Assembly: GCA_949152475.1 (NCBI GenBank)
Contig: OX424563.1
Location: 39,132,120-39,196,119 of the forward strand
Source: Terebella lapidaria
Lineage: Eukaryota > Annelida > Polychaeta > Terebellida > Terebellidae
DNA length: 64,000 nucleotides
Direction of reading: 5' to 3'
This document shows, piece after piece, positions 20,216-50,700 of the stretch. The position numbers and the translations under genes were made by a program. The notes under the pieces were generated by a model. That model was not told the DNA's origin and made no database searches. It saw only the letters and a program-made list of their open reading frames with translations. How positions within the stretch are numbered: position 1 is the first letter of the stretch; every line of letters begins with the position of its first letter.

Positions 20216-21559
20216 ATGGACATGCGACGCTCCACTGTACGATGGACATGCGATGCTCCACTGTACGACGGACATGTGACGCTCCACTGTATGATGGACA
20301 TGCAAGGTTCCACCGTACGATGGACATGGGATGCTCCATCGTACGATGGACATGTGACGCTCCACCGTACGATCGACATGCGATGCTCCACCGTACGATG
20401 GACATGTGATGCTCCATCGTACGATGGACATCTGACGCTCCACCGTACGATGGACATGCTATGCTCCACCGTACGATGGACATGTGACGCTCCACCGTAC
20501 GATGGACATGGGACGCTCCACCGTACAATGGACATGTGACGCTCCATCGTACGATGGACATGTGACGCTATACTGAATGATGGACATGCGAGGCTCCACC
20601 GTAAGATGGACATGTGACGCTCCACCGTATGATGGACATGCGACGCTCAATCGTACGATGGACATGGGATGCTCCACCGTATGATGGACATGTGACGCTC
20701 CACCGTACGATGGACATGTGACGCTCCAATGTATGATGGACATGTGACGCTCCACCGTACGATGGACATGTGACGCTCCACTGTATGATGGAAATGCAAA
20801 GCTCCACTGTACGATGGACATGTGACGCTCCACCGTACGATGGACATACGAGGCTCCATCGTAAGATGGACATGTGACGCTCCACTGTACAATGGACATG
20901 TGACGCTCCACCGTATGATGGACATGCAAGGCTCCACTGTACAATGGACATGTGACACTCCACCGTACGATGGACATGCGACGCTCTACCGTAGGATGGA
21001 CTAGCGAAGCTCCACCGTAAGATGGACATGTGACGCTCCACAGTACGATGGACATCTGACGCTCCACCGTACGATGGACATGCTATTCTCCAGCGTACGA
21101 TAGACATGTGACACTCCACCGTACGATGGACATGGGACGCTCCACCGTATAATGGACATGTGACGCTCCACCGTACGATGGACATGAGACGCTCCACCGT
21201 ATATGGACATGTGACGCTCCACCGTACGATGGACATGTGACGCTCCACTGTATGATGGACATGCAAAGCTCCACTGTACGATGGACATGTGACGCTCCAC
21301 CGTACGATGGACATACGAGGCTCCACCGTAAGATGGACATGTGACGCTCCACCGTACGATAGACATGCGATGCTCCACCGTACGATGGACATGTGATGCT
21401 CCACTGTACAATGGACATGTGACGCTCCACCGTATGATGGACATGCAAGGCTCCACTGTACAATGGACATGTGACACTCCACCGTACGATGGACATGCGA
21501 CGCTCTACCGTAGGATGGACTAGCGAAGCTCCACCGTAAGATGGACATGTGACGCTCCA
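20216..21559 (+). repeat. Partial third copy of the 3.4-3.7-kb unit
   Basis: Matches 16,552-17,895 at an offset of 3,664 bp, then diverges near 21,559. To its right, at 21.8-22.2 kb, two-monomer runs with ATGGAAATGCAAAG recur at about 21,907, 21,959 and 22,063. These are small local amplifications before the next block begins. Confidence 0.7.
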
Positions 21560-22199: not shown

Positions 22200-25100
22200 C
22201 GAGGCTCCATTGTAAGATGGACATGTGACACTCCCTGTACGATGGACATGCGACGCTCCACTGTACGATGGACATGTTACGCTCCACCGTACGATGGACA
22301 TGCGACGCTCCATCGTACGATGGACATGGGATGCTCCACCGTATGATGGACATGTGACACTCCGCTGTACGATGGACATGCGACGCTCCACTGTACGATG
22401 GACATGTTACGCTCCACCGTACGATGGACATGCGACGCTCCATCGTACGATGGACATGGGATGCTCCACCGTATGATGGACATGTGACACTCCACTGTAC
22501 GATGGATATGCGATGCTCCACCGTACGATGGACATGTGATGTTCCACCGTACGATGGACATCTGACGCTCCACCGTAGGATGGACATGTGACGCTCCACC
22601 GTACGATGGACATGTGATGCTCCACCGTACGATGGACATGGGATGCTCCATCGTACGATGGACAGGTGATGCTCCACCATACGATGGACATGCTATGCTC
22701 CACCGTACGATGGACATTTGACGCTCCACCGTACGATGGACATGAGACGCTCCACCGTACGATCGACATGCGATGCTTCACAGTACGATTGACATGTGAT
22801 GCTCCACTGTACGATGGACATCTAACGCTCCACCATACGATGGACATGAGATGCTCCACCGTACGATGGACATGTGACGCTCCACCGAATGATGGACATG
22901 CGAGGTTCCACCGTAAGATGGACATGTGACGCTCCATCGTACGATAGACATGCGATGCTCCACCGTACGATGGACATGTGATGCTCCACTGTACAATGGA
23001 CATGTGACGCTCCACCGTATGATGGACATGCAAGGCTCCACTGTACCATGGACATGTGACACTCCACCGTACGATGGACATGCGACGCTCTACCGTAGGA
23101 TGGACTAGCGAAGCTCCACCGTAAGATGGACATGTGACGCTCCACCGTACGATGGACATCTGACGCTCCACCGTACGATGGACATGCTATGCTCCAGCGT
23201 ACGATAGACATGTGACGCTCCACCGTACGATGGACATGGGACGCTACACCATATAATGGACATGTGACGCTCCACCGTACGATGGACATGAGACGCTCCA
23301 CCGTATATGGACATGTGACGCTCCACCGTACGATGGACATGTGACGCTCCACTGTATGATGGACATGCAAAGCTCCACTGCACGATGGACATGTGACGCT
23401 CCACCGTACGATGGACATACGAGGCTCCACCGTAAGATGGACATGTGACGCTCCACTGTACAATGGACATGTGACGCTCCACCGTATGATGGACATGCAA
23501 GGCTCCACTGTACAATGGACATGGGACGCTCCACCGAATGATGGACATGCGAGGCTCCACCATAAGATGGACATGTGACGCTCCACCGTACGATGGACAT
23601 GCGACGCTCCACCGTACGATGGACATGTGACGCTCCACCGAAGGATGGACATGTGATGCTCCACCGAAGGATGGACATGCGAGGCTCCACTGTAAGATGG
23701 ACATGTTATGCTCCACCGTACGATGGACATGCGACGCTCCATCGTACGATGGACATGGGATGCTCCACCGTATGATGGACATGTGACACTCCACTGTATG
23801 ATGGATATGCGATGCTCCACTGTACGATGGACATGTGATGTTCCACCGTACGATGGACATCTGACGCTCCACCGTAGGATGGACATGTGACGCTCCACCG
23901 TACGATGGACATGTGATGCTCCACCGTACGATGGACATGGGATGCTCCATCGTACGATGGACATGTGATGCTCCACCATACGATGGACATGCTATGCTCT
24001 ACCATACGATGGACATGTGACGCTCCACCATACGATGGACATGAGACGCTCCACCGTACGATCGACATGCGATGTTTCACAGTACGATTGACATGTGATG
24101 CTCCACTGTACGATGGACATCTAACGCTCCACCATACGATGGACATGAGATGCTCCACCGTACGATGGACATGTGACGCTCCACCGAATGATGGACATGC
24201 GAGGTTCCACCGTAAGATGGACATGTGACGCTCCACCGTACGATAGACATGCGATGCTCCACCGTACGATGGACATGTGACGCTCCACTGTACAATGGAC
24301 ATGTGACGCTCCACCGTATGATGGACATGCAAGGCTCCACTGTACAATGGACATGTGACACTCCACCGTACGATGGACATGCGACGCTCTACCGTAGGAT
24401 GGACTAGCGAAGCTCCACCGTACGATGGACATGTGACGCTCCACTGTACAATGGACATGTGACGCTCCACCGTATGATGGACATGCAAGGCTCCACTGTA
24501 CAATGGACATGTGACACTCCACCGTACGATGGACATGCGACGCTCTACCGTAGGATGGACTAGCGAAGCTCCACCGTAAGATGGACATCTGACGCTCCAC
24601 CGTACGATGGACATGTGATGCTCCACTGTACGATGGACATGTGACGCTCCACCGTACGATGGACATGGGACGCTCCAATGTACGATGGACATGCGACGCT
24701 CCACTGTACGATGGACATGCGATGCTCCACTGTACGACGGACATGTGACGCTCCACCTTACGATGGACATCTGACGCTCCACTGTACGATCGGCATGTGA
24801 TGCTCCACTGTACAATGCACATGTGACGCTCCACCGTATGATGGACATGCAAGGCTCCACTGTACAATGGACATGTGACACTCCACCGTACGATGGACAT
24901 GCGACGCTCTACCGTAGGATGGACTAGCGAAGCTCCACCGTAAGATGGACATGTGACGCTCCACAGTACGATGGACATCTGACGCTCCACCGTACGATGG
25001 ACATGTGATGCTCCACTGTACGATGGACATGTGACGCTCCACCGTACGATGGACATGGGACGCTCCAATGTACGATGGACATGCGACGCTCCACTGTACG

Positions 25101-25480
25101 ATGGACATGCGATGCTCCACTGTACGACGGACATGTGACGCTCCACTGTATGATGGACATGCGAGGTTCCACCGTACGATGGACATGGGATGCTCCATCG
25201 TACGATGGACATGTGACGCTCCACCGTACGATCGACATGCGATGCTCCACCGTACGATGGACATGTGATGCTCCATCGTACGATGGACATCTGACGCTCC
25301 ACCGTACGATGGACATGCTATGCTCCACCGTACGATGGACATGTGACGCTCCACCGTACGATGGACATGGGACGCTCCACCGTACAATGGACATGTGACG
25401 CTCCATCGTACGATGGACATGTGACGCTATACTGAATGATGGACATGCGAGGCTCCACCGTAAGATGGACATGTGACGCT
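22200..25480 (+). repeat. Block related to 8.45-11.95 kb
   Basis: This is the second occurrence of the block seen at 8.45-11.95 kb, with one CACTCCCTG short monomer (at about 22,233) and a single 337-bp unit. Its part from about 22,490 to 23,730 also matches 62,490-63,730, and its part from about 23,105 to 25,480 matches 59.1-61.5 kb. It therefore sits at the centre of a family of four related segments. Confidence 0.75.
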
Positions 25481-27609
25481 CCACCGTATGATGGACATGC
25501 GACGCTCAATCGTACGATGGACATGGGATGCTCCACCGTATGATGGACATGTGACGCTCCACCGTACGATGGACATGTGACGCTCCAATGTATGATGGAC
25601 ATGTGACGCTCCACCGTACGATGGACATGTGACGCTCCACTGTATGATGGAAATGCAAAGCTCCACTGTACGATGGACATGTGACGCTCCACCGTACGAT
25701 GGACATACGAGGCTCCATCGTAAGATGGACATGTGACGCTCCACTGTACAATGGACATGTGACGCTCCACCATATGATGGACATGCAAGGCTCCACTGTA
25801 CAATGGACATGTGACACTCCACCGTACGATGGACATGCGACGCTCTACCGTAGGATGGACTGGCGAAGCTCCACCGTAAGATGGACATGTGACGCTCCAC
25901 AGTACGATGGACATCTGACGCTCCACCGTACGATGGACATGCTATGCTCCAGCGTACGATAAACACGTGACACTCTACCGTACGATGGACATGGTACGCT
26001 CCACCGTATAATGGACATGTGACGCTCCACCGTACGATGGACATGAGACGCTCCACTGTACGATGGACATGTGACGCTCCACCGTACGATGGACATACGA
26101 GGCTCCACCGTAAGATGGACATGTGACGCTCCACCGTACGATAGACATGCGATGCTCCACCGTACGATGGACATGTGATGCTCCACTGTACAATGGACAT
26201 GTGACGCTCCACCGTATGATGGACATGCAAGGCTCCACTGTACAATGGACATGTGACACTCCACCGTACGATGGACATGCGACGCTCTACCGTAGGATGG
26301 ACTAGCGTAGCTCCACCGTAAGATGGACATGTGACGCTCCACAGTATGATGGACATCTGACGCTCCACCGTACGATGGACATGTGATGCTCCACTGTACG
26401 ATGGACATGTGACGCTCCACCGTACGATGGACATGGGATGCTCCAATGTACGATGGACATGCGACGCTCCACTGTACGATGGACATGCGATGCTCCACTG
26501 TACGACGGACATGTGACGCTCCACTGTAGGATGGACATGCGAGGTTCCACCGTACGATGGACATGGGATGCTCCATCGTACGATGGACATGTGACGCTCC
26601 ACCGTACGATGGACATGTGACGCTATACTGAATGATGGACATGCGAGGCTCCACCGTAAGATGGACATGTGACGCTCCACCGTATGATGGACATGCGACG
26701 CTCAATCGTACGATGGACATGGGATGCTCCACCGTATGATGGACATGTGACGCTCCACCGTACGATGGACATGTGACGCTCCACTGTATGATGGACATGT
26801 GACGCTCCACCGTACGATGGACATGTGACGCTCCACCGAAGGATGGACATGTGATGCTCCACCGAAGGATGGACATGCGAGGCTCCACTGTAAGATGGAC
26901 ATGTTATGCTCCACCGTACGATGGACATGCGACGCTCCATCGTACGATGGACATGGGATGCTCCACCGTATGATGGACATGTGACACTCCACTGTATGAT
27001 GGATATGCGATGCTCCACTGTACGATGGACATGTGATGTTCCACCGTACGATGGACATCTGACGCTCCACCGTAGGATGGACATGTGACGCTCCACCGTA
27101 CGATGGACATGTGATGCTCCACCGTACGATGGACATGGGATGCTCCATCGTACGATGGACATGTGATGCTCCACCATACGATGGACATGCTATGCTCTAC
27201 CATACGATGGACATGTGATGCTCCACCGTACGATGGACATGAGACGCTCCACCGTACGATCGACATGCGATGTTTCACAGTACGATTGACATGTGATGCT
27301 CCACTGTACGATGGACATCTAACGCTCCACCATACGATGGACATGAGATGCTCCACCGTACGATGGACATGTGACGCTCCACCGAATGATGGACATGCGA
27401 GGTTCCACCGTAAGATGGACATGTGACGCTCCACCGTACGATAGACATGCGATGCTCCACCGTACGATGGACATGTGACGCTCCACTGTACAATGGACAT
27501 GTGACGCTCCACCGTATGATGGACATGCAAGGCTCCACTGTACAATGGACATGTGACACTCCACCGTACGATGGACATGCGACGCTCTACCGTAGGATGG
27601 ACTAGCGAA
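25318..27609 (+). repeat. Left flank of the 8.55-kb duplication, repeated at 44.68-46.97 kb
   Basis: The order of variants here recurs 19,364 bp downstream at 44,682-46,973 with, as far as I could compare, almost no change. It carries the rare CACGTG-bearing monomer (25,964-25,969) and the GACTGGCG variant near 25,857. Two GCTATACTGAATG landmarks lie 1,196 bp (46 monomers) apart at about 25,426 and 26,622; this pair recurs in four other places, once widened by 156 bp. Confidence 0.8.
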
Positions 27610-30600
27610 GCTCCACCGTACGATGGACATGTGACGCTCCACCGTATGATGGACATGCAAGGCTCCACTGTACAATGGACATGTGACACTCCACCGTACG
27701 ATGGACATGCGACGCTCTACCGTAGGATGGACTAGCGAAGCTCCACCGTAAGATGGACATCTGACGCTCCACCGTACGATGGACATGTGATGCTCCACTG
27801 TACGATGGACATGTGACGCTCCACCGTACGATGGACATGGGACGCTCCAATGTACGATGGACATGCGACGCTCCACTGTACGATGGACATGCGATGCTCC
27901 ACTGTACGACGGACATGTGACGCTCCACCTTACGATGGACATCTGACGCTCCACTGTACGATCGGCATGTGATGCTCCACTGTACAATGCACATGTGACG
28001 CTCCACCGTATGATGGACATGCAAGGCTCCACTGTACAATGGACATGTGACACTCCACCGTACGATGGACATGCGACGCTCTACCGTAGGATGGACTAGC
28101 GAAGCTCCACCGTAAGATGGACATGTGACGCTCCACAGTACGATGGACATCTGACGCTCCACCGTACGATGGACATGTGATGCTCCACTGTACGATGGAC
28201 ATGTGACGCTCCACCGTACGATGGACATGGGACGCTCCAATGTACGATGGACATGCGACGCTCCACTGTACGATGGACATGCGATGCTCCACTGTACGAC
28301 GGACATGTGACGCTCCACTGTATGATGGACATGCGAGGTTCCACCGTACGATGGACATGGGATGCTCCATCGTACGATGGACATGTGACGCTCCACCGTA
28401 CGATCGACATGCGATGCTCCACCGTACGATGGACATGTGATGCTCCATCGTACGATGGACATCTGACGCTCCACCGTACGATGGACATGCTATGCTCCAC
28501 CGTACGATGGACATGTGACGCTCCACCGTACGATGGACATGGGACGCTCCACCGTACAATGGACATGTGACGCTCCATCGTACGATGGACATGTGACGCT
28601 ATACTGAATGATGGACATGCGAGGCTCCACCGTAAGATGGACATGTGACGCTCCACCGTATGATGGACATGCGACGCTCAATCGTACGATGGACATGGGA
28701 TGCTCCACCGTATGATGGACATGTGACGCTCCACCGTACGATGGACATGTGACGCTCCAATGTATGATGGACATGTGACGCTCCACCGTACGATGGACAT
28801 GTGACGCTCCACTGTATGATGGAAATGCAAAGCTCCACTGTACGATGGACATGTGACGCTCCACCGTACGATGGACATACGAGGCTCCATCGTAAGATGG
28901 ACATGTGACGCTCCACTGTACAATGGACATGTGACGCTCCACCGTATGATGGACATGCGAGGCTCCACTGTAAGATGGACATGTTATGCTCCACCGTACG
29001 ATGGACATGCGACGCTCCATCGTACGATGGACATGGGATGCTCCACCGTATGATGGACATGTGACACTCCACTGTATGATGGATATGCGATGCTCCACTG
29101 TACGATGGACATGTGATGTTCCACCGTACGATGGACATCTGACGCTCCACCGTAGGATGGACATGTGACGCTCCACCGTACGATGGACATGTGATGCTCC
29201 ACCGTACGATGGACATGGGATGCTCCATCGTACGATGGACATGTGATGCTCCACCATACGATGGACATGCTATGCTCTACCATACGATGGACATGTGACG
29301 CTCCACCATACGATGGACATGAGACGCTCCACCGTACGATCGACATGCGATGTTTCACAGTACGATTGACATGTGATGCTCCACTGTACGATGGACATCT
29401 AACGCTCCACCATACGATGGACATGAGATGCTCCACCGTACGATGGACATGTGACGCTCCACCGAATGATGGACATGCGAGGTTCCACCGTAAGATGGAC
29501 ATGTGACGCTCCACCGTACGATAGACATGCGATGCTCCACCGTACGATGGACATGTGACGCTCCACTGTACAATGGACATGTGACGCTCCACCGTATGAT
29601 GGACATGCAAGGCTCCACTGTACAATGGACATGTGACACTCCACCGTACGATGGACATGCGACGCTCTACCGCAGGATGGACTAGCGAAGCTCCACCGTA
29701 CGATGGACATGTGACACTCCACCGTACGATGGACATGCGACGCTCTACCGTAGGATGGACTAGCGAAGCTCCACCGTAAGATGGACATCTGACGCTCCAC
29801 CGTACGATGGACATGTGATGCTCCACCGTATGATGGACATGCAAGGCTCCACTGTACAATGGACATGTGACACTCCACCGTACGATGGACATGCGACGCT
29901 CTACCGTAGGATGGACTAGCGAAGCTCCACCGTAAGATGGACATCTGACGCTCCACCGTACGATGGACATGTGATGCTCCACTGTACGATGGACATGTGA
30001 CGCTCCACCGTACGATGGACATGGGACGCTCCAATGTACGATGGACATGCGACGCTCCACTGTACGATGGACATGCGATGCTCTACCGTAGGATGGACTA
30101 GCGAAGCTCCACCGTAAGATGGACATCTGACGCTCCACCGTACGATGGACATGTGACGCTCCACCGTATGATGGACATGCAAGGCTCCACTGTACAATGG
30201 ACATGTGACACTCCACCGTACGATGGACATGCGACGCTCTACCGTAGGATGGACTAGCGAAGCTCCACCGTAAGATGGACATCTGACGCTCCACCGTACG
30301 ATGGACATGTGATGCTCCACTGTACGATGGACATGTGACGCTCCACCGTACGATGGACATGGGACGCTCCAATGTACGATGGACATGCGACGCTCCACTG
30401 TACGATGGACATGCGATGCTCCACTGTACGACGGACATGTGACGCTCCACCTTACGATGGACATCTGACGCTCCACTGTACGATCGGCATGTGATGCTCC
30501 ACTGTACAATGCACATGTGACGCTCCACCGTATGATGGACATGCAAGGCTCCACTGTACAATGGACATGTGACACTCCACCGTACGATGGACATGCGACG

Positions 30601-33600
30601 CTCTACCGTAGGATGGACTAGCGAAGCTCCACCGTAAGATGGACATGTGACGCTCCACAGTACGATGGACATCTGACGCTCCACCGTACGATGGACATGT
30701 GATGCTCCACTGTACGATGGACATGTGACGCTCCACCGTACGATGGACATGGGACGCTCCAATGTACGATGGACATGCGACGCTCCACTGTACGATGGAC
30801 ATGCGATGCTCCACTGTACGACGGACATGTGACGCTCCACTGTATGATGGACATGCGAGGTTCCACCGTACGATGGACATGGGATGCTCCATCGTACGAT
30901 GGACATGGGACGCTCCACCGTACGATCGACATGCGATGCTCCACCGTACGATGGACATGTGATGCTCCATCGTACGATGGACATCTGACGCTCCACCGTA
31001 CGATGGACATGCTATGCTCCACCGTACGATGGACATGTGACGCTCCACCGTACGATGGACATGGGACGCTCCACCGTACAATGGACATGTGACGCTCCAT
31101 CGTACGATGGACATGTGACGCTATACTGAATGATGGACATGCGAGGCTCCACCGTAAGATGGACATGTGACGCTCCACCGTATGATGGACATGCGACGCT
31201 CAATCGTACGATGGACATGGGATGCTCCACCGTATGATGGACATGTGACGCTCCACCGTACGATGGACATGTGACGCTCCAATGTATGATGGACATGTGA
31301 CGCTCCACCGTACGATGGACATGTGACGCTCCACTGTATGATGGAAATGCAAAGCTCCACTGTACGATGGACATGTGACGCTCCACCGTACGATGGACAT
31401 ACGAGGCTCCATCGTAAGATGGACATGTGACGCTCCACTGTACAATGGACATGTGACGCTCCACCATATGATGGACATGCAAGGCTCCACTGTACAATGG
31501 ACATGTGACACTCCACCGTACGATGGACATGCGACGCTCTACCGTAGGATGGACTGGCGAAGCTCCACCGTAAGATGGACATGTGACGCTCCACAGTACG
31601 ATGGACATCTGACGCTCCACCGTACGATGGACATGCTATGCTCCAGCGTACGATAAACACGTGACACTCTACCGTACGATGGACATGGTACGCTCCACCG
31701 TATAATGGACATGTGACGCTCCACCGTACGATGGACATGAGACGCTCCACTGTACGATGGACATGTGACGCTCCACCGTACGATGGACATACGAGGCTCC
31801 ACCGTAAGATGGACATGTGACGCTCCACCGTACGATAGACATGCGATGCTCCACCGTACGATGGACATGTGATGCTCCACTGTACAATGGACATGTGACG
31901 CTCCACCGTATGATGGACATGCAAGGCTCCACTGTACAATGGACATGTGACACTCCACCGTACGATGGACATGCGACGCTCTACCGTAGGATGGACTAGC
32001 GAAGCTCCACCGTAAGATGGACATGTGACGCTCCACAGTATGATGGACATCTGACGCTCCACCGTACGATGGACATGTGATGCTCCACTGTACGATGGAC
32101 ATGTGACGCTCCACCGTACGATGGACATGGGATGCTCCAATGTACGATGGACATGCGACGCTCCACTGTACGATGGACATGCGATGCTCCACTGTACGAC
32201 GGACATGTGACGCTCCACTGTAGGATGGACATGCGAGGTTCCACCGTACGATGGACATGGGATGCTCCATCGTACGATGGACATGTGACGCTCCACCGTA
32301 CGATGGACATGTGACGCTATACTGAATGATGGACATGCGAGGCTCCACCGTAAGATGGACATGTGACGCTCCACCGTATGATGGACATGCGACGCTCAAT
32401 CGTACGATGGACATGGGATGCTCCACCGTATGATGGACATGTGACGCTCCACCGTACGATGGACATGTGACGCTCCACTGTATGATGGACATGTGACGCT
32501 CCACCGTACGATGGACATGTGACGCTCCACTGTATGATGGAAATGCAAAGCTCCACTGTACGATGGACATGTGATGCTCCACCGTACGATGGACATACGA
32601 GGCTCCATCGTAAGATGGACATGTGACGCTCCACTGTACAATGGACATGTGACGCTCCACCGTATGATGGACATGCAAGGCTCCACTGTACAATGGACAT
32701 GTGACACTCCACCGTACGATGGACATGCGACGCTCTACCGTAGGATGGACTAGCGAAGCTCCACCGTAAGATGGACATGTGACGCTCCACAGTACGATGG
32801 ACATCTGACGCTCCACCGTACGATGGACATGCTATGCTCCAGCGTACGATAGACATGTGACGCTCCACCGTACGATGGACATGGGACGCTCCACCGTATA
32901 ATGGACATGTGACGCTCCACCGTATGATGGACATGAGACGCTCCACCGTATATGGACATGTGACGCTCCACCGTACGATGGACATGTGACGCTCCACTGT
33001 ATGATGGACATGCAAAGCTCCACTGTACGATGGACATGTGACGCTCCACCGTACGATGGACATACGAGGCTCCATTGTAAGATGGACATGTGACACTCCC
33101 TGTACGATGGACATGCGACGCTCCACTGTACGATGGACATGTTACGCTCCACCGTACGATGGACATGCGACGCTCCATCGTACGATGGACATGGGATGCT
33201 CCACCGTATGATGGACATGTGACACTCCGCTGTACGATGGACATGCGACGCTCCACTGTACGATGGACATGTTACGCTCCACCGTACGATGGACATGCGA
33301 CGCTCCATCGTACGATGGACATGGGATGCTCCACCGTATGATGGACATGTGACACTCCACTGTACGATGGATATGCGATGCTCCACCGTACGATGGACAT
33401 GTGATGTTCCACCGTACGATGGACATCTGACGCTCCACCGTAGGATGGACATGTGACGCTCCACCGTACGATGGACATGTGATGCTCCACCGTACGATGG
33501 ACATGGGATGCTCCATCGTACGATGGACAGGTGATGCTCCACCATACGATGGACATGCTATGCTCCACCGTACGATGGACATTTGACGCTCCACCGTACG

Positions 33601-36160
33601 ATGGACATGAGACGCTCCACCGTACGATCGACATGCGATGCTTCACAGTACGATTGACATGTGATGCTCCACTGTACGATGGACATCTAACGCTCCACCA
33701 TACGATGGACATGAGATGCTCCACCTTACGATGGACATGTGACGCTCCACCGAATGATGGACATGCGAGGTTCCACCGTAAGATGGACATGTGACGCTCC
33801 ATCGTACGATAGACATGCGATGCTCCACCGTACGATGGACATGTGATGCTCCACTGTACAATGGACATGTGACGCTCCACCGTATGATGGACATGCAAGG
33901 CTCCACTGTACCATGGACATGTGACACTCCACCGTACGATGGACATGCGACGCTCTACCGTAGGATGGACTAGCGAAGCTCCACCGTAAGATGGACATGT
34001 GACGCTCCACCGTACGATGGACATCTGACGCTCCACCGTACGATGGACATGCTATGCTCCAGCGTACGATAGACATGTGACGCTCCACCGTACGATGGAC
34101 ATGGGACGCTACACCATATAATGGACATGTGACGCTCCACCGTACGATGGACATGAGACGCTCCACCGTATATGGACATGTGACGCTCCACCGTACGATG
34201 GACATGTGACGCTCCACTGTATGATGGACATGCAAAGCTCCACTGCACGATGGACATGTGACGCTCCACCGTACGATGGACATACGAGGCTCCACCGTAA
34301 GATGGACATGTGACGCTCCACTGTACAATGGACATGTGACGCTCCACCGTATGATGGACATGCAAGGCTCCACTGTACAATGGACATGGGACGCTCCACC
34401 GAATGATGGACATGCGAGGCTCCACCATAAGATGGACATGTGACGCTCCACTGTACGATGGACATGCGACGCTCCACCGTACGATGGACATGTGACGCTC
34501 CACCGAAGGATGGACATGTGATGCTCCACCGAAGGATGGACATGCGAGGCTCCACTGTAAGATGGACATGTTATGCTCCACCGTACGATGGACATGCGAC
34601 GCTCCATCGTACGATGGACATGGGATGCTCCACCGTATGATGGACATGTGACACTCCACTGTATGATGGATATGCGATGCTCCACTGTACGATGGACATG
34701 TGATGTTCCACCGTACGATGGACATCTGACGCTCCACCGTAGGATGGACATGTGACGCTCCACCATACGATGGACATGTGATGCTCCACCGTACGATGGA
34801 CATGGGATGCTCCATCGTACGATGGACATGTGATGCTCCACCATACGATGGACATGCTATGCTCTACCATACGATGGACATGTGACGCTCCACCATACGA
34901 TGGACATGAGACGCTCCACCGTACGATCGACATGCGATGTTTCACAGTACGATTGACATGTGATGCTCCACTGTACGATGGACATCTAACGCTCCACCAT
35001 ACGATGGACATGAGATGCTCCACCGTACGATGGACATGTGACGCTCCACCGAATGATGGACATGCGAGGTTCCACCGTAAGATGGACATGTGACGCTCCA
35101 CCGTACGATAGACATGCGATGCTCCACCGTACGATGGACATGTGACGCTCCACTGTACAATGGACATGTGACGCTCCACCGTATGATGGACATGCAAGGC
35201 TCCACTGTACAATGGACATGTGACACTCCACCGTACGATGGACATGCGACGCTCTACCGTAGGATGGACTAGCGAAGCTCCACCGTACGATGGACATGTG
35301 ACGCTCCACTGTACAATGGACATGTGACGCTCCACCGTATGATGGACATGCAAGGCTCCACTGTACAATGGACATGTGACACTCCACCGTACGATGGACA
35401 TGCGACGCTCTACCGTAGGATGGACTAGCGAAGCTCCACCGTAAGATGGACATCTGACGCTCCACCGTACGATGGACATGTGATGCTCCACTGTACGATG
35501 GACATGTGACGCTCCACCGTACGATGGACATGGGACGCTCCAATGTACGATGGACATGCGACGCTCCACTGTACGATGGACATGCGATGCTCCACTGTAC
35601 GACGGACATGTGACGCTCCACCTTACGATGGACATCTGACGCTCCACTGTACGATCGGCATGTGATGCTCCACTGTACAATGCACATGTGACGCTCCACC
35701 GTATGATGGACATGCAAGGCTCCACTGTACAATGGACATGTGACACTCCACCGTACGATGGACATGCGACGCTCTACCGTAGGATGGACTAGCGAAGCTC
35801 CACCGTAAGATGGACATGTGACGCTCCACAGTACGATGGACATCTGACGCTCCACCGTACGATGGACATGTGATGCTCCAATGTACGATGGACATGCGAC
35901 GCTCCACTGTACGATGGACATGCGATGCTCCACTGTACGACGGACATGTGACGCTCCACTGTATGATGGACATGCGAGGTTCCACCGTACGATGGACATG
36001 GGATGCTCCATCGTACGATGGACATGTGACGCTCCACCGTACGATCGACATGCGATGCTCCACCGTACGATGGACATGTGATGCTCCATCGTACGATGGA
36101 CATCTGACGCTCCACCGTACGATGGACATGCTATGCTCCACCGTACGATGGACATGTGAC
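27610..36160 (+). repeat. 8,551-bp tandem duplication, copy A
   Basis: This segment is followed directly by a second copy at an offset of exactly 8,551 bp, which is 329 monomers, three of them 25 bp (about 32,948, 33,100 and 34,167). Rare variants seen only in the two copies confirm the pairing: CCGCAGGATGG at 29,670 and 38,221, and a GGGACGCTCCACCG monomer before a GATCGAC at 30,906 and 39,457. I found no difference between copies in the stretches I compared. The breakpoint lies in a 22-bp identical stretch at 27,610-27,631, 36,161-36,182 and 44,712-44,733. Confidence 0.9.
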
Positions 36161-39100
36161 GCTCCACCGTACGATGGACATGTGACGCTCCACCGTATGA
36201 TGGACATGCAAGGCTCCACTGTACAATGGACATGTGACACTCCACCGTACGATGGACATGCGACGCTCTACCGTAGGATGGACTAGCGAAGCTCCACCGT
36301 AAGATGGACATCTGACGCTCCACCGTACGATGGACATGTGATGCTCCACTGTACGATGGACATGTGACGCTCCACCGTACGATGGACATGGGACGCTCCA
36401 ATGTACGATGGACATGCGACGCTCCACTGTACGATGGACATGCGATGCTCCACTGTACGACGGACATGTGACGCTCCACCTTACGATGGACATCTGACGC
36501 TCCACTGTACGATCGGCATGTGATGCTCCACTGTACAATGCACATGTGACGCTCCACCGTATGATGGACATGCAAGGCTCCACTGTACAATGGACATGTG
36601 ACACTCCACCGTACGATGGACATGCGACGCTCTACCGTAGGATGGACTAGCGAAGCTCCACCGTAAGATGGACATGTGACGCTCCACAGTACGATGGACA
36701 TCTGACGCTCCACCGTACGATGGACATGTGATGCTCCACTGTACGATGGACATGTGACGCTCCACCGTACGATGGACATGGGACGCTCCAATGTACGATG
36801 GACATGCGACGCTCCACTGTACGATGGACATGCGATGCTCCACTGTACGACGGACATGTGACGCTCCACTGTATGATGGACATGCGAGGTTCCACCGTAC
36901 GATGGACATGGGATGCTCCATCGTACGATGGACATGTGACGCTCCACCGTACGATCGACATGCGATGCTCCACCGTACGATGGACATGTGATGCTCCATC
37001 GTACGATGGACATCTGACGCTCCACCGTACGATGGACATGCTATGCTCCACCGTACGATGGACATGTGACGCTCCACCGTACGATGGACATGGGACGCTC
37101 CACCGTACAATGGACATGTGACGCTCCATCGTACGATGGACATGTGACGCTATACTGAATGATGGACATGCGAGGCTCCACCGTAAGATGGACATGTGAC
37201 GCTCCACCGTATGATGGACATGCGACGCTCAATCGTACGATGGACATGGGATGCTCCACCGTATGATGGACATGTGACGCTCCACCGTACGATGGACATG
37301 TGACGCTCCAATGTATGATGGACATGTGACGCTCCACCGTACGATGGACATGTGACGCTCCACTGTATGATGGAAATGCAAAGCTCCACTGTACGATGGA
37401 CATGTGACGCTCCACCGTACGATGGACATACGAGGCTCCATCGTAAGATGGACATGTGACGCTCCACTGTACAATGGACATGTGACGCTCCACCGTATGA
37501 TGGACATGCGAGGCTCCACTGTAAGATGGACATGTTATGCTCCACCGTACGATGGACATGCGACGCTCCATCGTACGATGGACATGGGATGCTCCACCGT
37601 ATGATGGACATGTGACACTCCACTGTATGATGGATATGCGATGCTCCACTGTACGATGGACATGTGATGTTCCACCGTACGATGGACATCTGACGCTCCA
37701 CCGTAGGATGGACATGTGACGCTCCACCGTACGATGGACATGTGATGCTCCACCGTACGATGGACATGGGATGCTCCATCGTACGATGGACATGTGATGC
37801 TCCACCATACGATGGACATGCTATGCTCTACCATACGATGGACATGTGACGCTCCACCATACGATGGACATGAGACGCTCCACCGTACGATCGACATGCG
37901 ATGTTTCACAGTACGATTGACATGTGATGCTCCACTGTACGATGGACATCTAACGCTCCACCATACGATGGACATGAGATGCTCCACCGTACGATGGACA
38001 TGTGACGCTCCACCGAATGATGGACATGCGAGGTTCCACCGTAAGATGGACATGTGACGCTCCACCGTACGATAGACATGCGATGCTCCACCGTACGATG
38101 GACATGTGACGCTCCACTGTACAATGGACATGTGACGCTCCACCGTATGATGGACATGCAAGGCTCCACTGTACAATGGACATGTGACACTCCACCGTAC
38201 GATGGACATGCGACGCTCTACCGCAGGATGGACTAGCGAAGCTCCACCGTACGATGGACATGTGACACTCCACCGTACGATGGACATGCGACGCTCTACC
38301 GTAGGATGGACTAGCGAAGCTCCACCGTAAGATGGACATCTGACGCTCCACCGTACGATGGACATGTGATGCTCCACCGTATGATGGACATGCAAGGCTC
38401 CACTGTACAATGGACATGTGACACTCCACCGTACGATGGACATGCGACGCTCTACCGTAGGATGGACTAGCGAAGCTCCACCGTAAGATGGACATCTGAC
38501 GCTCCACCGTACGATGGACATGTGATGCTCCACTGTACGATGGACATGTGACGCTCCACCGTACGATGGACATGGGACGCTCCAATGTACGATGGACATG
38601 CGACGCTCCACTGTACGATGGACATGCGATGCTCTACCGTAGGATGGACTAGCGAAGCTCCACCGTAAGATGGACATCTGACGCTCCACCGTACGATGGA
38701 CATGTGACGCTCCACCGTATGATGGACATGCAAGGCTCCACTGTACAATGGACATGTGACACTCCACCGTACGATGGACATGCGACGCTCTACCGTAGGA
38801 TGGACTAGCGAAGCTCCACCGTAAGATGGACATCTGACGCTCCACCGTACGATGGACATGTGATGCTCCACTGTACGATGGACATGTGACGCTCCACCGT
38901 ACGATGGACATGGGACGCTCCAATGTACGATGGACATGCGACGCTCCACTGTACGATGGACATGCGATGCTCCACTGTACGACGGACATGTGACGCTCCA
39001 CCTTACGATGGACATCTGACGCTCCACTGTACGATCGGCATGTGATGCTCCACTGTACAATGCACATGTGACGCTCCACCGTATGATGGACATGCAAGGC

Positions 39101-42100
39101 TCCACTGTACAATGGACATGTGACACTCCACCGTACGATGGACATGCGACGCTCTACCGTAGGATGGACTAGCGAAGCTCCACCGTAAGATGGACATGTG
39201 ACGCTCCACAGTACGATGGACATCTGACGCTCCACCGTACGATGGACATGTGATGCTCCACTGTACGATGGACATGTGACGCTCCACCGTACGATGGACA
39301 TGGGACGCTCCAATGTACGATGGACATGCGACGCTCCACTGTACGATGGACATGCGATGCTCCACTGTACGACGGACATGTGACGCTCCACTGTATGATG
39401 GACATGCGAGGTTCCACCGTACGATGGACATGGGATGCTCCATCGTACGATGGACATGGGACGCTCCACCGTACGATCGACATGCGATGCTCCACCGTAC
39501 GATGGACATGTGATGCTCCATCGTACGATGGACATCTGACGCTCCACCGTACGATGGACATGCTATGCTCCACCGTACGATGGACATGTGACGCTCCACC
39601 GTACGATGGACATGGGACGCTCCACCGTACAATGGACATGTGACGCTCCATCGTACGATGGACATGTGACGCTATACTGAATGATGGACATGCGAGGCTC
39701 CACCGTAAGATGGACATGTGACGCTCCACCGTATGATGGACATGCGACGCTCAATCGTACGATGGACATGGGATGCTCCACCGTATGATGGACATGTGAC
39801 GCTCCACCGTACGATGGACATGTGACGCTCCAATGTATGATGGACATGTGACGCTCCACCGTACGATGGACATGTGACGCTCCACTGTATGATGGAAATG
39901 CAAAGCTCCACTGTACGATGGACATGTGACGCTCCACCGTACGATGGACATACGAGGCTCCATCGTAAGATGGACATGTGACGCTCCACTGTACAATGGA
40001 CATGTGACGCTCCACCATATGATGGACATGCAAGGCTCCACTGTACAATGGACATGTGACACTCCACCGTACGATGGACATGCGACGCTCTACCGTAGGA
40101 TGGACTGGCGAAGCTCCACCGTAAGATGGACATGTGACGCTCCACAGTACGATGGACATCTGACGCTCCACCGTACGATGGACATGCTATGCTCCAGCGT
40201 ACGATAAACACGTGACACTCTACCGTACGATGGACATGGTACGCTCCACCGTATAATGGACATGTGACGCTCCACCGTACGATGGACATGAGACGCTCCA
40301 CTGTACGATGGACATGTGACGCTCCACCGTACGATGGACATACGAGGCTCCACCGTAAGATGGACATGTGACGCTCCACCGTACGATAGACATGCGATGC
40401 TCCACCGTACGATGGACATGTGATGCTCCACTGTACAATGGACATGTGACGCTCCACCGTATGATGGACATGCAAGGCTCCACTGTACAATGGACATGTG
40501 ACACTCCACCGTACGATGGACATGCGACGCTCTACCGTAGGATGGACTAGCGAAGCTCCACCGTAAGATGGACATGTGACGCTCCACAGTATGATGGACA
40601 TCTGACGCTCCACCGTACGATGGACATGTGATGCTCCACTGTACGATGGACATGTGACGCTCCACCGTACGATGGACATGGGATGCTCCAATGTACGATG
40701 GACATGCGACGCTCCACTGTACGATGGACATGCGATGCTCCACTGTACGACGGACATGTGACGCTCCACTGTAGGATGGACATGCGAGGTTCCACCGTAC
40801 GATGGACATGGGATGCTCCATCGTACGATGGACATGTGACGCTCCACCGTACGATGGACATGTGACGCTATACTGAATGATGGACATGCGAGGCTCCACC
40901 GTAAGATGGACATGTGACGCTCCACCGTATGATGGACATGCGACGCTCAATCGTACGATGGACATGGGATGCTCCACCGTATGATGGACATGTGACGCTC
41001 CACCGTACGATGGACATGTGACGCTCCACTGTATGATGGACATGTGACGCTCCACCGTACGATGGACATGTGACGCTCCACTGTATGATGGAAATGCAAA
41101 GCTCCACTGTACGATGGACATGTGATGCTCCACCGTACGATGGACATACGAGGCTCCATCGTAAGATGGACATGTGACGCTCCACTGTACAATGGACATG
41201 TGACGCTCCACCGTATGATGGACATGCAAGGCTCCACTGTACAATGGACATGTGACACTCCACCGTACGATGGACATGCGACGCTCTACCGTAGGATGGA
41301 CTAGCGAAGCTCCACCGTAAGATGGACATGTGACGCTCCACAGTACGATGGACATCTGACGCTCCACCGTACGATGGACATGCTATGCTCCAGCGTACGA
41401 TAGACATGTGACGCTCCACCGTACGATGGACATGGGACGCTCCACCGTATAATGGACATGTGACGCTCCACCGTATGATGGACATGAGACGCTCCACCGT
41501 ATATGGACATGTGACGCTCCACCGTACGATGGACATGTGACGCTCCACTGTATGATGGACATGCAAAGCTCCACTGTACGATGGACATGTGACGCTCCAC
41601 CGTACGATGGACATACGAGGCTCCATTGTAAGATGGACATGTGACACTCCCTGTACGATGGACATGCGACGCTCCACTGTACGATGGACATGTTACGCTC
41701 CACCGTACGATGGACATGCGACGCTCCATCGTACGATGGACATGGGATGCTCCACCGTATGATGGACATGTGACACTCCGCTGTACGATGGACATGCGAC
41801 GCTCCACTGTACGATGGACATGTTACGCTCCACCGTACGATGGACATGCGACGCTCCATCGTACGATGGACATGGGATGCTCCACCGTATGATGGACATG
41901 TGACACTCCACTGTACGATGGATATGCGATGCTCCACCGTACGATGGACATGTGATGTTCCACCGTACGATGGACATCTGACGCTCCACCGTAGGATGGA
42001 CATGTGACGCTCCACCGTACGATGGACATGTGATGCTCCACCGTACGATGGACATGGGATGCTCCATCGTACGATGGACAGGTGATGCTCCACCATACGA

Positions 42101-44711
42101 TGGACATGCTATGCTCCACCGTACGATGGACATTTGACGCTCCACCGTACGATGGACATGAGACGCTCCACCGTACGATCGACATGCGATGCTTCACAGT
42201 ACGATTGACATGTGATGCTCCACTGTACGATGGACATCTAACGCTCCACCATACGATGGACATGAGATGCTCCACCTTACGATGGACATGTGACGCTCCA
42301 CCGAATGATGGACATGCGAGGTTCCACCGTAAGATGGACATGTGACGCTCCATCGTACGATAGACATGCGATGCTCCACCGTACGATGGACATGTGATGC
42401 TCCACTGTACAATGGACATGTGACGCTCCACCGTATGATGGACATGCAAGGCTCCACTGTACCATGGACATGTGACACTCCACCGTACGATGGACATGCG
42501 ACGCTCTACCGTAGGATGGACTAGCGAAGCTCCACCGTAAGATGGACATGTGACGCTCCACCGTACGATGGACATCTGACGCTCCACCGTACGATGGACA
42601 TGCTATGCTCCAGCGTACGATAGACATGTGACGCTCCACCGTACGATGGACATGGGACGCTACACCATATAATGGACATGTGACGCTCCACCGTACGATG
42701 GACATGAGACGCTCCACCGTATATGGACATGTGACGCTCCACCGTACGATGGACATGTGACGCTCCACTGTATGATGGACATGCAAAGCTCCACTGCACG
42801 ATGGACATGTGACGCTCCACCGTACGATGGACATACGAGGCTCCACCGTAAGATGGACATGTGACGCTCCACTGTACAATGGACATGTGACGCTCCACCG
42901 TATGATGGACATGCAAGGCTCCACTGTACAATGGACATGGGACGCTCCACCGAATGATGGACATGCGAGGCTCCACCATAAGATGGACATGTGACGCTCC
43001 ACTGTACGATGGACATGCGACGCTCCACCGTACGATGGACATGTGACGCTCCACCGAAGGATGGACATGTGATGCTCCACCGAAGGATGGACATGCGAGG
43101 CTCCACTGTAAGATGGACATGTTATGCTCCACCGTACGATGGACATGCGACGCTCCATCGTACGATGGACATGGGATGCTCCACCGTATGATGGACATGT
43201 GACACTCCACTGTATGATGGATATGCGATGCTCCACTGTACGATGGACATGTGATGTTCCACCGTACGATGGACATCTGACGCTCCACCGTAGGATGGAC
43301 ATGTGACGCTCCACCATACGATGGACATGTGATGCTCCACCGTACGATGGACATGGGATGCTCCATCGTACGATGGACATGTGATGCTCCACCATACGAT
43401 GGACATGCTATGCTCTACCATACGATGGACATGTGACGCTCCACCATACGATGGACATGAGACGCTCCACCGTACGATCGACATGCGATGTTTCACAGTA
43501 CGATTGACATGTGATGCTCCACTGTACGATGGACATCTAACGCTCCACCATACGATGGACATGAGATGCTCCACCGTACGATGGACATGTGACGCTCCAC
43601 CGAATGATGGACATGCGAGGTTCCACCGTAAGATGGACATGTGACGCTCCACCGTACGATAGACATGCGATGCTCCACCGTACGATGGACATGTGACGCT
43701 CCACTGTACAATGGACATGTGACGCTCCACCGTATGATGGACATGCAAGGCTCCACTGTACAATGGACATGTGACACTCCACCGTACGATGGACATGCGA
43801 CGCTCTACCGTAGGATGGACTAGCGAAGCTCCACCGTACGATGGACATGTGACGCTCCACTGTACAATGGACATGTGACGCTCCACCGTATGATGGACAT
43901 GCAAGGCTCCACTGTACAATGGACATGTGACACTCCACCGTACGATGGACATGCGACGCTCTACCGTAGGATGGACTAGCGAAGCTCCACCGTAAGATGG
44001 ACATCTGACGCTCCACCGTACGATGGACATGTGATGCTCCACTGTACGATGGACATGTGACGCTCCACCGTACGATGGACATGGGACGCTCCAATGTACG
44101 ATGGACATGCGACGCTCCACTGTACGATGGACATGCGATGCTCCACTGTACGACGGACATGTGACGCTCCACCTTACGATGGACATCTGACGCTCCACTG
44201 TACGATCGGCATGTGATGCTCCACTGTACAATGCACATGTGACGCTCCACCGTATGATGGACATGCAAGGCTCCACTGTACAATGGACATGTGACACTCC
44301 ACCGTACGATGGACATGCGACGCTCTACCGTAGGATGGACTAGCGAAGCTCCACCGTAAGATGGACATGTGACGCTCCACAGTACGATGGACATCTGACG
44401 CTCCACCGTACGATGGACATGTGATGCTCCAATGTACGATGGACATGCGACGCTCCACTGTACGATGGACATGCGATGCTCCACTGTACGACGGACATGT
44501 GACGCTCCACTGTATGATGGACATGCGAGGTTCCACCGTACGATGGACATGGGATGCTCCATCGTACGATGGACATGTGACGCTCCACCGTACGATCGAC
44601 ATGCGATGCTCCACCGTACGATGGACATGTGATGCTCCATCGTACGATGGACATCTGACGCTCCACCGTACGATGGACATGCTATGCTCCACCGTACGAT
44701 GGACATGTGAC
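36161..44711 (+). repeat. 8,551-bp tandem duplication, copy B
   Basis: This is the second copy of 27,610-36,160. Both copies include a shortened form of the common 560-bp block (35,789 onward and 44,340 onward) that lacks three monomers, 78 bp. This shows that the shortening came before the duplication. The lack of visible divergence means either a very recent unequal exchange or an assembly error that doubled the segment. Confidence 0.9.
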
Positions 44712-47700
44712 GCTCCACCGTACGATGGACATGGGACGCTCCACCGTACAATGGACATGTGACGCTCCATCGTACGATGGACATGTGACGCTATACTGAA
44801 TGATGGACATGCGAGGCTCCACCGTAAGATGGACATGTGACGCTCCACCGTATGATGGACATGCGACGCTCAATCGTACGATGGACATGGGATGCTCCAC
44901 CGTATGATGGACATGTGACGCTCCACCGTACGATGGACATGTGACGCTCCAATGTATGATGGACATGTGACGCTCCACCGTACGATGGACATGTGACGCT
45001 CCACTGTATGATGGAAATGCAAAGCTCCACTGTACGATGGACATGTGACGCTCCACCGTACGATGGACATACGAGGCTCCATCGTAAGATGGACATGTGA
45101 CGCTCCACTGTACAATGGACATGTGACGCTCCACCATATGATGGACATGCAAGGCTCCACTGTACAATGGACATGTGACACTCCACCGTACGATGGACAT
45201 GCGACGCTCTACCGTAGGATGGACTGGCGAAGCTCCACCGTAAGATGGACATGTGACGCTCCACAGTACGATGGACATCTGACGCTCCACCGTACGATGG
45301 ACATGCTATGCTCCAGCGTACGATAAACACGTGACACTCTACCGTACGATGGACATGGTACGCTCCACCGTATAATGGACATGTGACGCTCCACCGTACG
45401 ATGGACATGAGACGCTCCACTGTACGATGGACATGTGACGCTCCACCGTACGATGGACATACGAGGCTCCACCGTAAGATGGACATGTGACGCTCCACCG
45501 TACGATAGACATGCGATGCTCCACCGTACGATGGACATGTGATGCTCCACTGTACAATGGACATGTGACGCTCCACCGTATGATGGACATGCAAGGCTCC
45601 ACTGTACAATGGACATGTGACACTCCACCGTACGATGGACATGCGACGCTCTACCGTAGGATGGACTAGCGTAGCTCCACCGTAAGATGGACATGTGACG
45701 CTCCACAGTATGATGGACATCTGACGCTCCACCGTACGATGGACATGTGATGCTCCACTGTACGATGGACATGTGACGCTCCACCGTACGATGGACATGG
45801 GATGCTCCAATGTACGATGGACATGCGACGCTCCACTGTACGATGGACATGCGATGCTCCACTGTACGACGGACATGTGACGCTCCACTGTAGGATGGAC
45901 ATGCGAGGTTCCACCGTACGATGGACATGGGATGCTCCATCGTACGATGGACATGTGACGCTCCACCGTACGATGGACATGTGACGCTATACTGAATGAT
46001 GGACATGCGAGGCTCCACCGTAAGATGGACATGTGACGCTCCACCGTATGATGGACATGCGACGCTCAATCGTACGATGGACATGGGATGCTCCACCGTA
46101 TGATGGACATGTGACGCTCCACCGTACGATGGACATGTGACGCTCCACTGTATGATGGACATGTGACGCTCCACCGTACGATGGACATGTGACGCTCCAC
46201 CGAAGGATGGACATGTGATGCTCCACCGAAGGATGGACATGCGAGGCTCCACTGTAAGATGGACATGTTATGCTCCACCGTACGATGGACATGCGACGCT
46301 CCATCGTACGATGGACATGGGATGCTCCACCGTATGATGGACATGTGACACTCCACTGTATGATGGATATGCGATGCTCCACTGTACGATGGACATGTGA
46401 TGTTCCACCGTACGATGGACATCTGACGCTCCACCGTAGGATGGACATGTGACGCTCCACCGTACGATGGACATGTGATGCTCCACCGTACGATGGACAT
46501 GGGATGCTCCATCGTACGATGGACATGTGATGCTCCACCATACGATGGACATGCTATGCTCTACCATACGATGGACATGTGATGCTCCACCGTACGATGG
46601 ACATGAGACGCTCCACCGTACGATCGACATGCGATGTTTCACAGTACGATTGACATGTGATGCTCCACTGTACGATGGACATCTAACGCTCCACCATACG
46701 ATGGACATGAGATGCTCCACCGTACGATGGACATGTGACGCTCCACCGAATGATGGACATGCGAGGTTCCACCGTAAGATGGACATGTGACGCTCCACCG
46801 TACGATAGACATGCGATGCTCCACCGTACGATGGACATGTGACGCTCCACTGTACAATGGACATGTGACGCTCCACCGTATGATGGACATGCAAGGCTCC
46901 ACTGTACAATGGACATGTGACACTCCACCGTACGATGGACATGCGACGCTCTACCGTAGGATGGACTAGCGAAGCTCCACCGTACGATGGACATGTGACG
47001 CTCCACCGTATGATGGACATGCAAGGCTCCACTGTACAATGGACATGTGACACTCCACCGTACGATGGACATGCGACGCTCTACCGTAGGATGGACTAGC
47101 GAAGCTCCACCGTAAGATGGACATCTGACGCTCCACCGTACGATGGACATGTGATGCTCCACTGTACGATGGACATGTGACGCTCCACCGTACGATGGAC
47201 ATGGGACGCTCCAATGTACGATGGACATGCGACGCTCCACTGTACGATGGACATGCGATGCTCCACTGTACGACGGACATGTGACGCTCCACCTTACGAT
47301 GGACATCTGACGCTCCACTGTACGATCGGCATGTGATGCTCCACTGTACAATGCACATGTGACGCTCCACCGTATGATGGACATGCAAGGCTCCACTGTA
47401 CAATGGACATGTGACACTCCACCGTAGGATGGACATGCGACGCTCTACCGTAGGATGGACTAGCGAAGCTCCACCGTAAGATGGACATGTGACGCTCCAC
47501 AGTACGATGGACATCTGACGCTCCACCGTACGATGGACATGTGATGCTCCACTGTACGATGGACATGTGACGCTCCACCGTACGATGGACATGGGACGCT
47601 CCAATGTACGATGGACATGCGACGCTCCACTGTACGATGGACATGCGATGCTCCACTGTACGACGGACATGTGACGCTCCACTGTATGATGGACATGCGA

Positions 47701-50700
47701 GGTTCCACCGTACGATGGACATGGGATGCTCCATCGTACGATGGACATGTGACGCTCCACCGTACGATCGACATGCGATGCTCCACCGTACGATGGACAT
47801 GTGATGCTCCATCGTACGATGGACATCTGACGCTCCACCGTACGATGGACATGCTATGCTCCACCGTACGATGGACATGTGACGCTCCACCGTACGATGG
47901 ACATGGGACGCTCCACCGTACAATGGACATGTGACGCTCCATCGTACGATGGACATGTGACGCTATACTGAATGATGGACATGCGAGGCTCCACCGTAAG
48001 ATGGACATGTGACGCTCCACCGTATGATGGACATGCGACGCTCAATCGTACGATGGACATGGGATGCTCCACCGTATGATGGACATGTGACGCTCCACCG
48101 TACGATGGACATGTGACGCTCCAATGTATGATGGACATGTGACGCTCCACCGTACGATGGACATGTGACGCTCCACTGTATGATGGAAATGCAAAGCTCC
48201 ACTGTACGATGGACATGTGACGCTCCACCGTACGATGGACATACGAGGCTCCATCGTAAGATGGACATGTGACGCTCCACTGTACAATGGACATGTGACG
48301 CTCCACCGTATGATGGACATGCGAGGCTCCACTGTAAGATGGACATGTTATGCTCCACCGTACGATGGACATGCGACGCTCCATCGTACGATGGACATGG
48401 GATGCTCCACCGTATGATGGACATGTGACACTCCACTGTATGATGGATATGCGATGCTCCACTGTACGATGGACATGTGATGTTCCACCGTACGATGGAC
48501 ATCTGACGCTCCACCGTAGGATGGACATGTGACGCTCCACCGTACGATGGACATGTGATGCTCCACCGTACGATGGACATGGGATGCTCCATCGTATGAT
48601 GGACATGTGATGCTCCACCATACGATGGACATGCTATGCTCTACCATACGATGGACATGTGACGCTCCACCATACGATGGACATGAGACGCTCCACCGTA
48701 CGATCGACATGCGATGTTTCACAGTACGATTGACATGTGATGCTCCACTGTACGATGGACATCTAACGCTCCACCATACGATGGACATGAGATGCTCCAC
48801 CGTACGATGGACATGTGACGCTCCACCGAATGATGGACATGCGAGGTTCCACCGTAAGATGGACATGTGACGCTCCACCGTACGATAGACATGCGATGCT
48901 CCACCGTACGATGGACATGTGACGCTCCACTGTACAATGGACATGTGACGCTCCACCGTATGATGGACATGCAAGGCTCCACTGTACAATGGACATGTGA
49001 CACTCCACCGTACGATGGACATGCGACGCTCTACCGTAGGATGGACTAGCGAAGCTCCACCGTAAGATGGACATCTGACGCTCCACCGTACGATGGACAT
49101 GTGATGCTCCACTGTACGATGGACATGTGACGCTCCACCGTACGATGGACATGGGACGCTCCAATGTACGATGGACATGCGACGCTCCACTGTACGATGG
49201 ACATGCGATGCTCCACTGTACGACGGACATGTGACGCTCCACCTTACGATGGACATCTGACGCTCCACTGTACGATCGGCATGTGATGCTCCACTGTACA
49301 ATGCACATGTGACGCTCCACCGTATGATGGACATGCAAGGCTCCACTGTACAATGGACATGTGACACTCCACCGTACGATGGACATGCGACGCTCTACCG
49401 TAGGATGGACTAGCGAAGCTCCACCGTAAGATGGACATGTGACGCTCCACAGTACGATGGACATCTGACGCTCCACCGTACGATGGACATGTGATGCTCC
49501 ACTGTACGATGGACATGTGACGCTCCACCGTACGATGGACATGGGACGCTCCAATGTACGATGGACATGCGACGCTCCACTGTACGATGGACATGCGATG
49601 CTCCACTGTACGACGGACATGTGACGCTCCACTGTATGATGGACATGCGAGGTTCCACCGTACGATGGACATGGGATGCTCCATCGTACGATGGACATGT
49701 GACGCTCCACCGTACGATCGACATGCGATGCTCCACCGTACGATGGACATGTGATGCTCCATCGTACGATGGACATCTGACGCTCCACCGTACGATGGAC
49801 ATGCTATGCTCCACCGTACGATGGACATGTGACGCTCCACCGTACGATGGACATGGGACGCTCCACCGTACAATGGACATGTGACGCTCCATCGTACGAT
49901 GGACATGTGACGCTATACTGAATGATGGACATGCGAGGCTCCACCGTAAGATGGACATGTGACGCTCCACCGTATGATGGACATGCGACGCTCAATCGTA
50001 CGATGGACATGGGATGCTCCACCGTATGATGGACATGTGACGCTCCACCGTACGATGGACATGTGACGCTCCAATGTATGATGGACATGTGACGCTCCAC
50101 CGTACGATGGACATGTGACGCTCCACTGTATGATGGAAATGCAAAGCTCCACTGTACGATGGACATGTGACGCTCCACCGTACGATGGACATACGAGGCT
50201 CCATCGTAAGATGGACATGTGACGCTCCACTGTACAATGGACATGTGACGCTCCACCATATGATGGACATGCAAGGCTCCACTGTACAATGGACATGTGA
50301 CACTCCACCGTACGATGGACATGCGACGCTCTACCGTAGGATGGACTGGCGAAGCTCCACCGTAAGATGGACATGTGACGCTCCACAGTACGATGGACAT
50401 CTGACGCTCCACCGTACGATGGACATGCTATGCTCCAGCGTACGATAAACACGTGACACTCTACCGTACGATGGACATGGTACGCTCCACCGTATAATGG
50501 ACATGTGACGCTCCACCGTACGATGGACATGAGACGCTCCACTGTACGATGGACATGTGACGCTCCACCGTACGATGGACATACGAGGCTCCACCGTAAG
50601 ATGGACATGTGACGCTCCACCGTACGATAGACATGCGATGCTCCACCGTACGATGGACATGTGATGCTCCACTGTACAATGGACATGTGACGCTCCACTG

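Follow-up and report, generated by a model that had tools for sequence, protein, structure and literature searches.

A probable recent tandem duplication of 329 monomers in a 26-bp satellite array of Terebella lapidaria

The locus analyzed here raises the question whether two identical segments of about 8.5 kb, which directly follow each other inside a satellite array of the polychaete Terebella lapidaria, represent a real duplication, and by which route such a duplication might have been made. The window, i.e. the whole stretch of DNA that was analyzed, comprises 64,000 bp (assembly GCA_949152475.1, contig OX424563.1, positions 39,132,120 to 39,196,119 of the forward strand).

The satellite array and its monomers

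The array fills the window from end to end:

1-64,000: 26-bp satellite array, head to tail, consensus ACGATGGACATGTGACGCTCCACCGT (Tandem Repeats Finder and monomer decomposition)

Tandem Repeats Finder reported the whole 64 kb as a single row with a 26-bp unit, 2,462.8 copies and 84% matches. The decomposition of the window yielded 2,462 monomers of 132 types, of which 2,429 have 26 bp and 33 have 25 bp. Indels relative to the consensus consist of 33 one-base deletions only, which are confined to two monomer positions, and the 25-bp monomers belong to three monomer types that occur 26, 6 and 1 times. The scattered indels that noisy reads would leave were not seen, which speaks for a good assembly consensus, and the window contains 0 N. 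It has one 16-mer in common with its own reverse complement, hence a long inverted segment is absent. Throughout the window, the monomer types are shuffled into kb-scale paralogous blocks. No tRNA was found in the window, and Rfam gave no match at the gathering score.

A blastn search with 2 kb of the array (27,500-29,500) found no match among plasmids and a lone 31-bp match with E = 7 among phages. An exact 25-base piece of the consensus had 0 matches in genome contigs and 0 in viral contigs, while a degenerate 20-mer was found at 17 places in genome contigs and 2 in viral contigs, with a single match each; these 19 places are taken as chance, the 17 in genome contigs exceeding our own rough estimate of about 7 expected. 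Three monomer strings were not found in a text search of the literature, and a literature search for long 26-bp minisatellites found nothing. The longest of the 291 listed stop-to-stop frames of at least 100 aa has 1,184 codons (16,904-20,458, minus strand); it is attributed to the consensus being free of stops and is not taken as a gene. A coding reading of the minus-strand frames, along which the consensus is read as stop-free, was likewise rejected, because 26 is not divisible by 3 and the 25-bp monomers would shift the frame.

Two features of the monomer itself were also recorded. The monomer boundary of the consensus is near-palindromic (TCCAYCGTACGATGGA), with 857 matches among the approximately 2,460 boundaries of the window and 111 perfect palindromes; the dyad of the consensus boundary has 14 of 16 bases paired, which was equalled by 325 of 20,000 shuffled monomers. 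Speculatively, it might be a candidate dimer binding site or a place of hairpin extrusion. The three CpG cytosines of the consensus (columns 1-2, 15-16 and 23-24, 0-based) are changed from C to T in 387, 573 and 666 of 2,429 monomers, compared to 19 to 173 at the five remaining C columns, these counts being monomers and not mutation events. Such an excess is the pattern that cytosine methylation would give. The matching G-to-A changes, again counted as monomers and not as mutation events, are less clear, with 242, 125 and 94 at the CpG positions while other G columns reach 178, and the observed/expected ratio of CpG in the window is 1.11.

Two identical copies and the join between them

The repeated segments and one of their diagnostic monomers are located as follows:

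27,610-36,160, plus strand: copy A, 8,551 bp, 329 monomers, 0 differences to copy B
36,161-44,711, plus strand: copy B, 8,551 bp, 329 monomers, 0 differences to copy A
29,648-29,673, plus strand: monomer variant private to A and B, one of five such variants

The initial annotation had seen no difference between the copies and proposed that they be counted base by base; the count gave 0 mismatches among 8,551 aligned bases at an offset of 8,551. Abutting, in the same orientation and with 0 of 8,551 bases differing, A and B look as a recent tandem duplication should. Their exact match extends over 8,573 bp (27,610-36,182 versus 36,161-44,733, offset 8,551) and overruns the 8,551-bp unit by 22 bp, which agrees with the 22-bp identity in which the junction had been placed and makes the placement of the join ambiguous by 22 bp. 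The other particulars of that annotation hold as well: the two matching stretches part just outside the identity, with GAAG versus GACG on the left and CATGT versus CATGG on the right, three of the 329 monomers are short ones of 25 bp (329 x 26 - 3 = 8,551), and the rare private marker CCGCAGGATGG has exactly two occurrences, at 29,670 and 38,221.

Five monomer types are found once in A, once in B and nowhere else in the window. Besides the variant listed above, they start at 29,700, 30,064, 33,702 and 35,859, and all five are repeated 8,551 bp further on, in B. The ancestor of A carried private variants at 0.58 per kb against 0.66 per kb in the rest of the window, and hence gathered them at about the array-wide rate, whereas new variants since the copying of A and B number none. 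Monomer types with a single occurrence count 31 in the window, all outside A and B, where 11.3 would be expected in 17.1 kb (P = 1.2e-5); the singleton rate, the expectation and the P value are rough, because types near the window ends may have partners beyond the window. The zero singletons in A and B restate the identity of the two copies and are therefore not independent evidence.

The direction of the event can be read from three joins:

36,161-36,182: join of A end and B start, most likely derived, 22 bp, GCTCCACCGTACGATGGACATG, crossover point not placeable more finely
27,610-27,631: left outer join (left flank / A start), most likely ancestral, second occurrence at 46,974 (offset +19,364)
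44,712-44,733: right outer join (B end / right flank), most likely ancestral, second occurrence at 25,348-25,369 (offset -19,364)

All seven windows of 58 to 230 bp that were tested across the A-end/B-start join occur once in the 64 kb, while its shorter cores are common in the window (30-bp core 85 times, 42-bp core 76 times). The 22-mer itself is present 517 times, which rules out a special recombination site. Among k-mers spanning the join, those occurring once are 0 of 1 at k = 31, 19 of 21 at 51, 70 of 71 at 101, 470 of 471 at 501 and 971 of 971 at 1,001, and all examined at larger k likewise. At the second occurrence of the left outer join, the identical context covers 2,548 bp on the left and 400 bp on the right; for the right outer join the corresponding values are 280 and 2,548 bp. 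Both recurrences lie within a 3,001-bp exact repeat (25,062-28,062 = 44,426-47,426). Since the middle join is unique and both outer joins recur, the middle join is regarded as derived and made by the duplication event. Judged from the sequence, the outer joins most likely pre-existed and the A-end/B-start join is new, so that the internal join is derived and the outer ones ancestral, the arrangement that a tandem duplication leaves.

Homology around the event and its probable route

A and B form the longest exact direct repeat in the window, followed by repeats of 3,001, 2,290 and 1,985 bp. A listing of paralogous segments in 20-monomer windows contained 363 of them, 88 of which are 50 or more monomers long and have 0.37% as their median divergence, those involving A mostly being counted again for B. 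A/B is the least diverged and longest of the 88 and the only one among the 363 with a length/offset ratio of 1.00, the next being 0.73 for a 24-monomer segment; it is also the only abutting kb-scale pair found in the window. The listing extends segment edges, which gives 1 difference in the A/B row and zero in none of the 363 rows; for A/B the base-level count of 0 is the correct one. Smaller exact tandem copies comprise 1, 2, 6, 10 and 17 monomers (periods up to 1,199 monomers examined). Paralogous blocks of kb scale are widely distributed in length and divergence, and A/B marks the extreme end; the initial annotation of this segment had mentioned neither this nor that one satellite fills the whole window.

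Other young copies are visible beside it. A further large block (25,020-29,699 versus 44,384-49,063, offset 19,364) covers 180 monomers with 6 differences (0.13%), and corresponds to a register of about 10.8 kb after removal of one 8,551-bp copy. A shorter pair at 24,422 and 48,908 has 1 difference over 69 monomers. Exact tandem doublets of six monomers occur eight times, at 10,728, 15,743, 19,147, 24,266, 35,131, 43,682, 55,898 and 58,835, including one in A and one in B; later large duplications may have spread a single old small one. A regular higher-order array with a single dominant multi-monomer period was not found in the window. The best 50 offsets above 600 bp (26 to 39,999 scanned) include 49 multiples of 26, all below 1,900 and with an identity that declines slowly, and, as the remaining one, 10,865 with 47% identity, ungapped; the offsets of the blocks vary widely.

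The similarity of the partners that were joined bears directly on the route. When in-register positions were drawn at random in unrelated context, 12% lay in runs of at least 22 bp (14% in a looser control), hence a 22-bp run alone is unremarkable. Compared with their partners, the 90 monomers to the left of the break differ by 15.6% per base and the 90 to the right by 15.0%, against 14.5% in 50,000 random pairs. These distances are about those of random monomers, which indicates that higher-order homology did not guide the event, and the extended near-identity past the crossover that characterizes homology-driven unequal crossing-over was not found on either side. Such homology was on offer: with copy B omitted, the best register is 416 monomers (about 10.8 kb), with 181 aligned monomers at 0.19% divergence. 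As read from the sequence, the event kept the 26-bp register and a 22-bp identity and ignored the available register of about 10.8 kb.

The identity at other joins was examined in 11 cases including A/B, filtered from 278 candidate intervals such that the 160-bp window over the join is seen once and each parent at least twice; candidates up to 100 bp apart were grouped and the longest-supported kept, many of the 278 being alternative readings of one place. The shared identities are 0, 2, 10, 14, 15, 20, 22, 24, 35, 45 and 86 bp, with a median of 20 bp; the median of 20,000 control draws is 9 bp (Mann-Whitney P = 0.008, and 0.018 when A/B is left out and ten joins remain). This excess is suggestive of annealing-type repair, with few joins, 11 of 278 candidates, entering the comparison. 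For the A/B join, copy A was taken as right-hand parent because A matches B throughout; alternative right-hand parents have 26 bp (offset 2,522, 780-bp match) or 9 bp (offset -11,723, 1,321-bp match). Where in the monomer the block edges lie was left out as evidence, because exact-match edges fall on variable columns by construction.

Collectively, we regard it as probable that A/B is a recent, real tandem duplication made by short-identity, out-of-register repair. In a single recent event, 329 consecutive monomers (8,551 bp) would have been copied and the copy placed immediately behind the original. A replication fork that had stalled or broken may have resumed on the sister chromatid at a similar yet non-equivalent monomer some 8.5 kb back, by break-induced replication or template switching on short identity. 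The product has the form that growth by break-induced replication should leave, namely an out-of-register duplication of whole monomers (329) on short identity (22 bp). The initial annotation had named unequal exchange between misaligned sister repeats as a source. Its recent tandem duplication in monomer register was borne out and could be polarized, while "misaligned sister repeats" proved too loose a wording. Classical unequal crossing-over, with higher-order repeats aligned out of step by at least one higher-order unit, would also give a tandem duplication in whole monomers; it is, however, very improbable, as beyond the 22 bp both sides look like random monomers and the register of about 10.8 kb was left unused. 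Because the event made no use of higher-order homology, repair by replication on short identity is at least as good an explanation as the classical process. An unequal sister-chromatid exchange at the same 22-bp identity would yield an identical product, which cannot separate these two routes.

Elsewhere in the window, the patchwork of kb-scale blocks looks like what earlier events of a similar kind would leave behind. A far more general reading, that the array owes most of its growth to template switching on short identity at the kb scale, keeps its 26-bp register, ignores higher-order homology, and so becomes a patchwork that never settles into regular higher-order repeats, with A/B as its newest product, caught before mutation, is tentative and in our judgment rather doubtful.

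Assembly alternatives and known satellite systems

It might be that the chromosome carries one copy only, and that a chimeric read or an excised circle of 8,551 bp supplied the join, with the assembler walking the resulting loop twice. We consider this unlikely. Every repeated 3,002-mer (5,572 of 5,572) belongs to A/B, the sole exact repeat of at least 3,002 bp in the window, so overlaps of 3 to 8.6 kb would leave one unresolvable graph loop in the window, and extrachromosomal circles are named among the recognized satellite routes in PMC12321929. A loop, on the other hand, requires the join as an edge, and a linear single-copy array would contain no such sequence; almost all k-mers spanning the join are unique at k = 51, and all of those examined are from 1,001 upwards, and a 22-bp identity in a context of about 85% similarity would be implausible as an overlap for a long-read assembler. 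Excised circles are seldom abundant enough to determine the path of an assembly. The loop walked twice, which had been suggested previously, thus fails by itself for a single-copy locus, since the join would be missing from the linear array and is unique at long k; a wrong copy number, an excised circle or a chimeric read may nevertheless be involved. The amplification may also be real with a copy number other than two, either three or more copies collapsed to two or a duplication on one haplotype only. Two copies would be the shortest walk that uses the join once, and an 8,573-mer is still repeated exactly in the window while no 8,574-mer is, so that reads shorter than about 8.6 kb cannot count the copies. 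The sequence holds no positive sign of another copy number, however, and we judge this quite unlikely. Concatenated alleles, i.e. a false duplication, were thought unlikely given the absence of N and only 22 bp of identity at the join.

The Arabidopsis centromere monomer has about 178 bp, and human HSATII is built on an ATTCC-type repeat, unlike the consensus monomer here, which is without one. In monomer length the present array resembles HSATII, described as a satellite of approximately 26 bp (PMC5615363). Reviews contrast out-of-register duplication of satellites by break-induced replication, its microhomology form included, with unequal exchange (PMC8997354, PMC12321929). The Rice model of break-induced replication in centromeric satellites, as presented in these two reviews, shares with A/B the duplication of whole monomers, the presumed out-of-register initiation on the sister chromatid and a complex nested structure; it differs in that the monomer here has 26 bp and the event comprises 329 monomers. 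The unequal exchange of Smith (1976), as described in PMC8997354, likewise produces tandem duplications in monomer register; unlike there, no reciprocal deletion product is visible here and higher-order homology is unused. According to the same source, the founding duplication needs no extensive homology. In mutation accumulation lines of Arabidopsis, in-frame indels of 1-31 centromeric monomers have been reported (Dong et al. 2025, cited in PMC12321929). These resemble A/B, as far as described in PMC12321929, in being precise in-register insertions derived from adjacent sequence; the A/B event is larger in monomers and of the same order in bases, as 31 monomers would be about 5.5 kb.

For the biology of such arrays, A/B is ordinary for satellites and an unusually clean example. 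Being the sole repeat of the window that overlaps of 3 to 8.6 kb leave unresolved, it also provides a concrete test case for checking assemblies. If real, it is a freshly made, polarized duplication whose breakpoint is placed to within 22 bp, and part of the older history of the array can be read as well. It bears on the question whether satellites grow through homology-aligned crossing-over or through replication-based repair at short identities. Most likely, the duplication goes back to an accident of copying, a known way in which satellite arrays grow.
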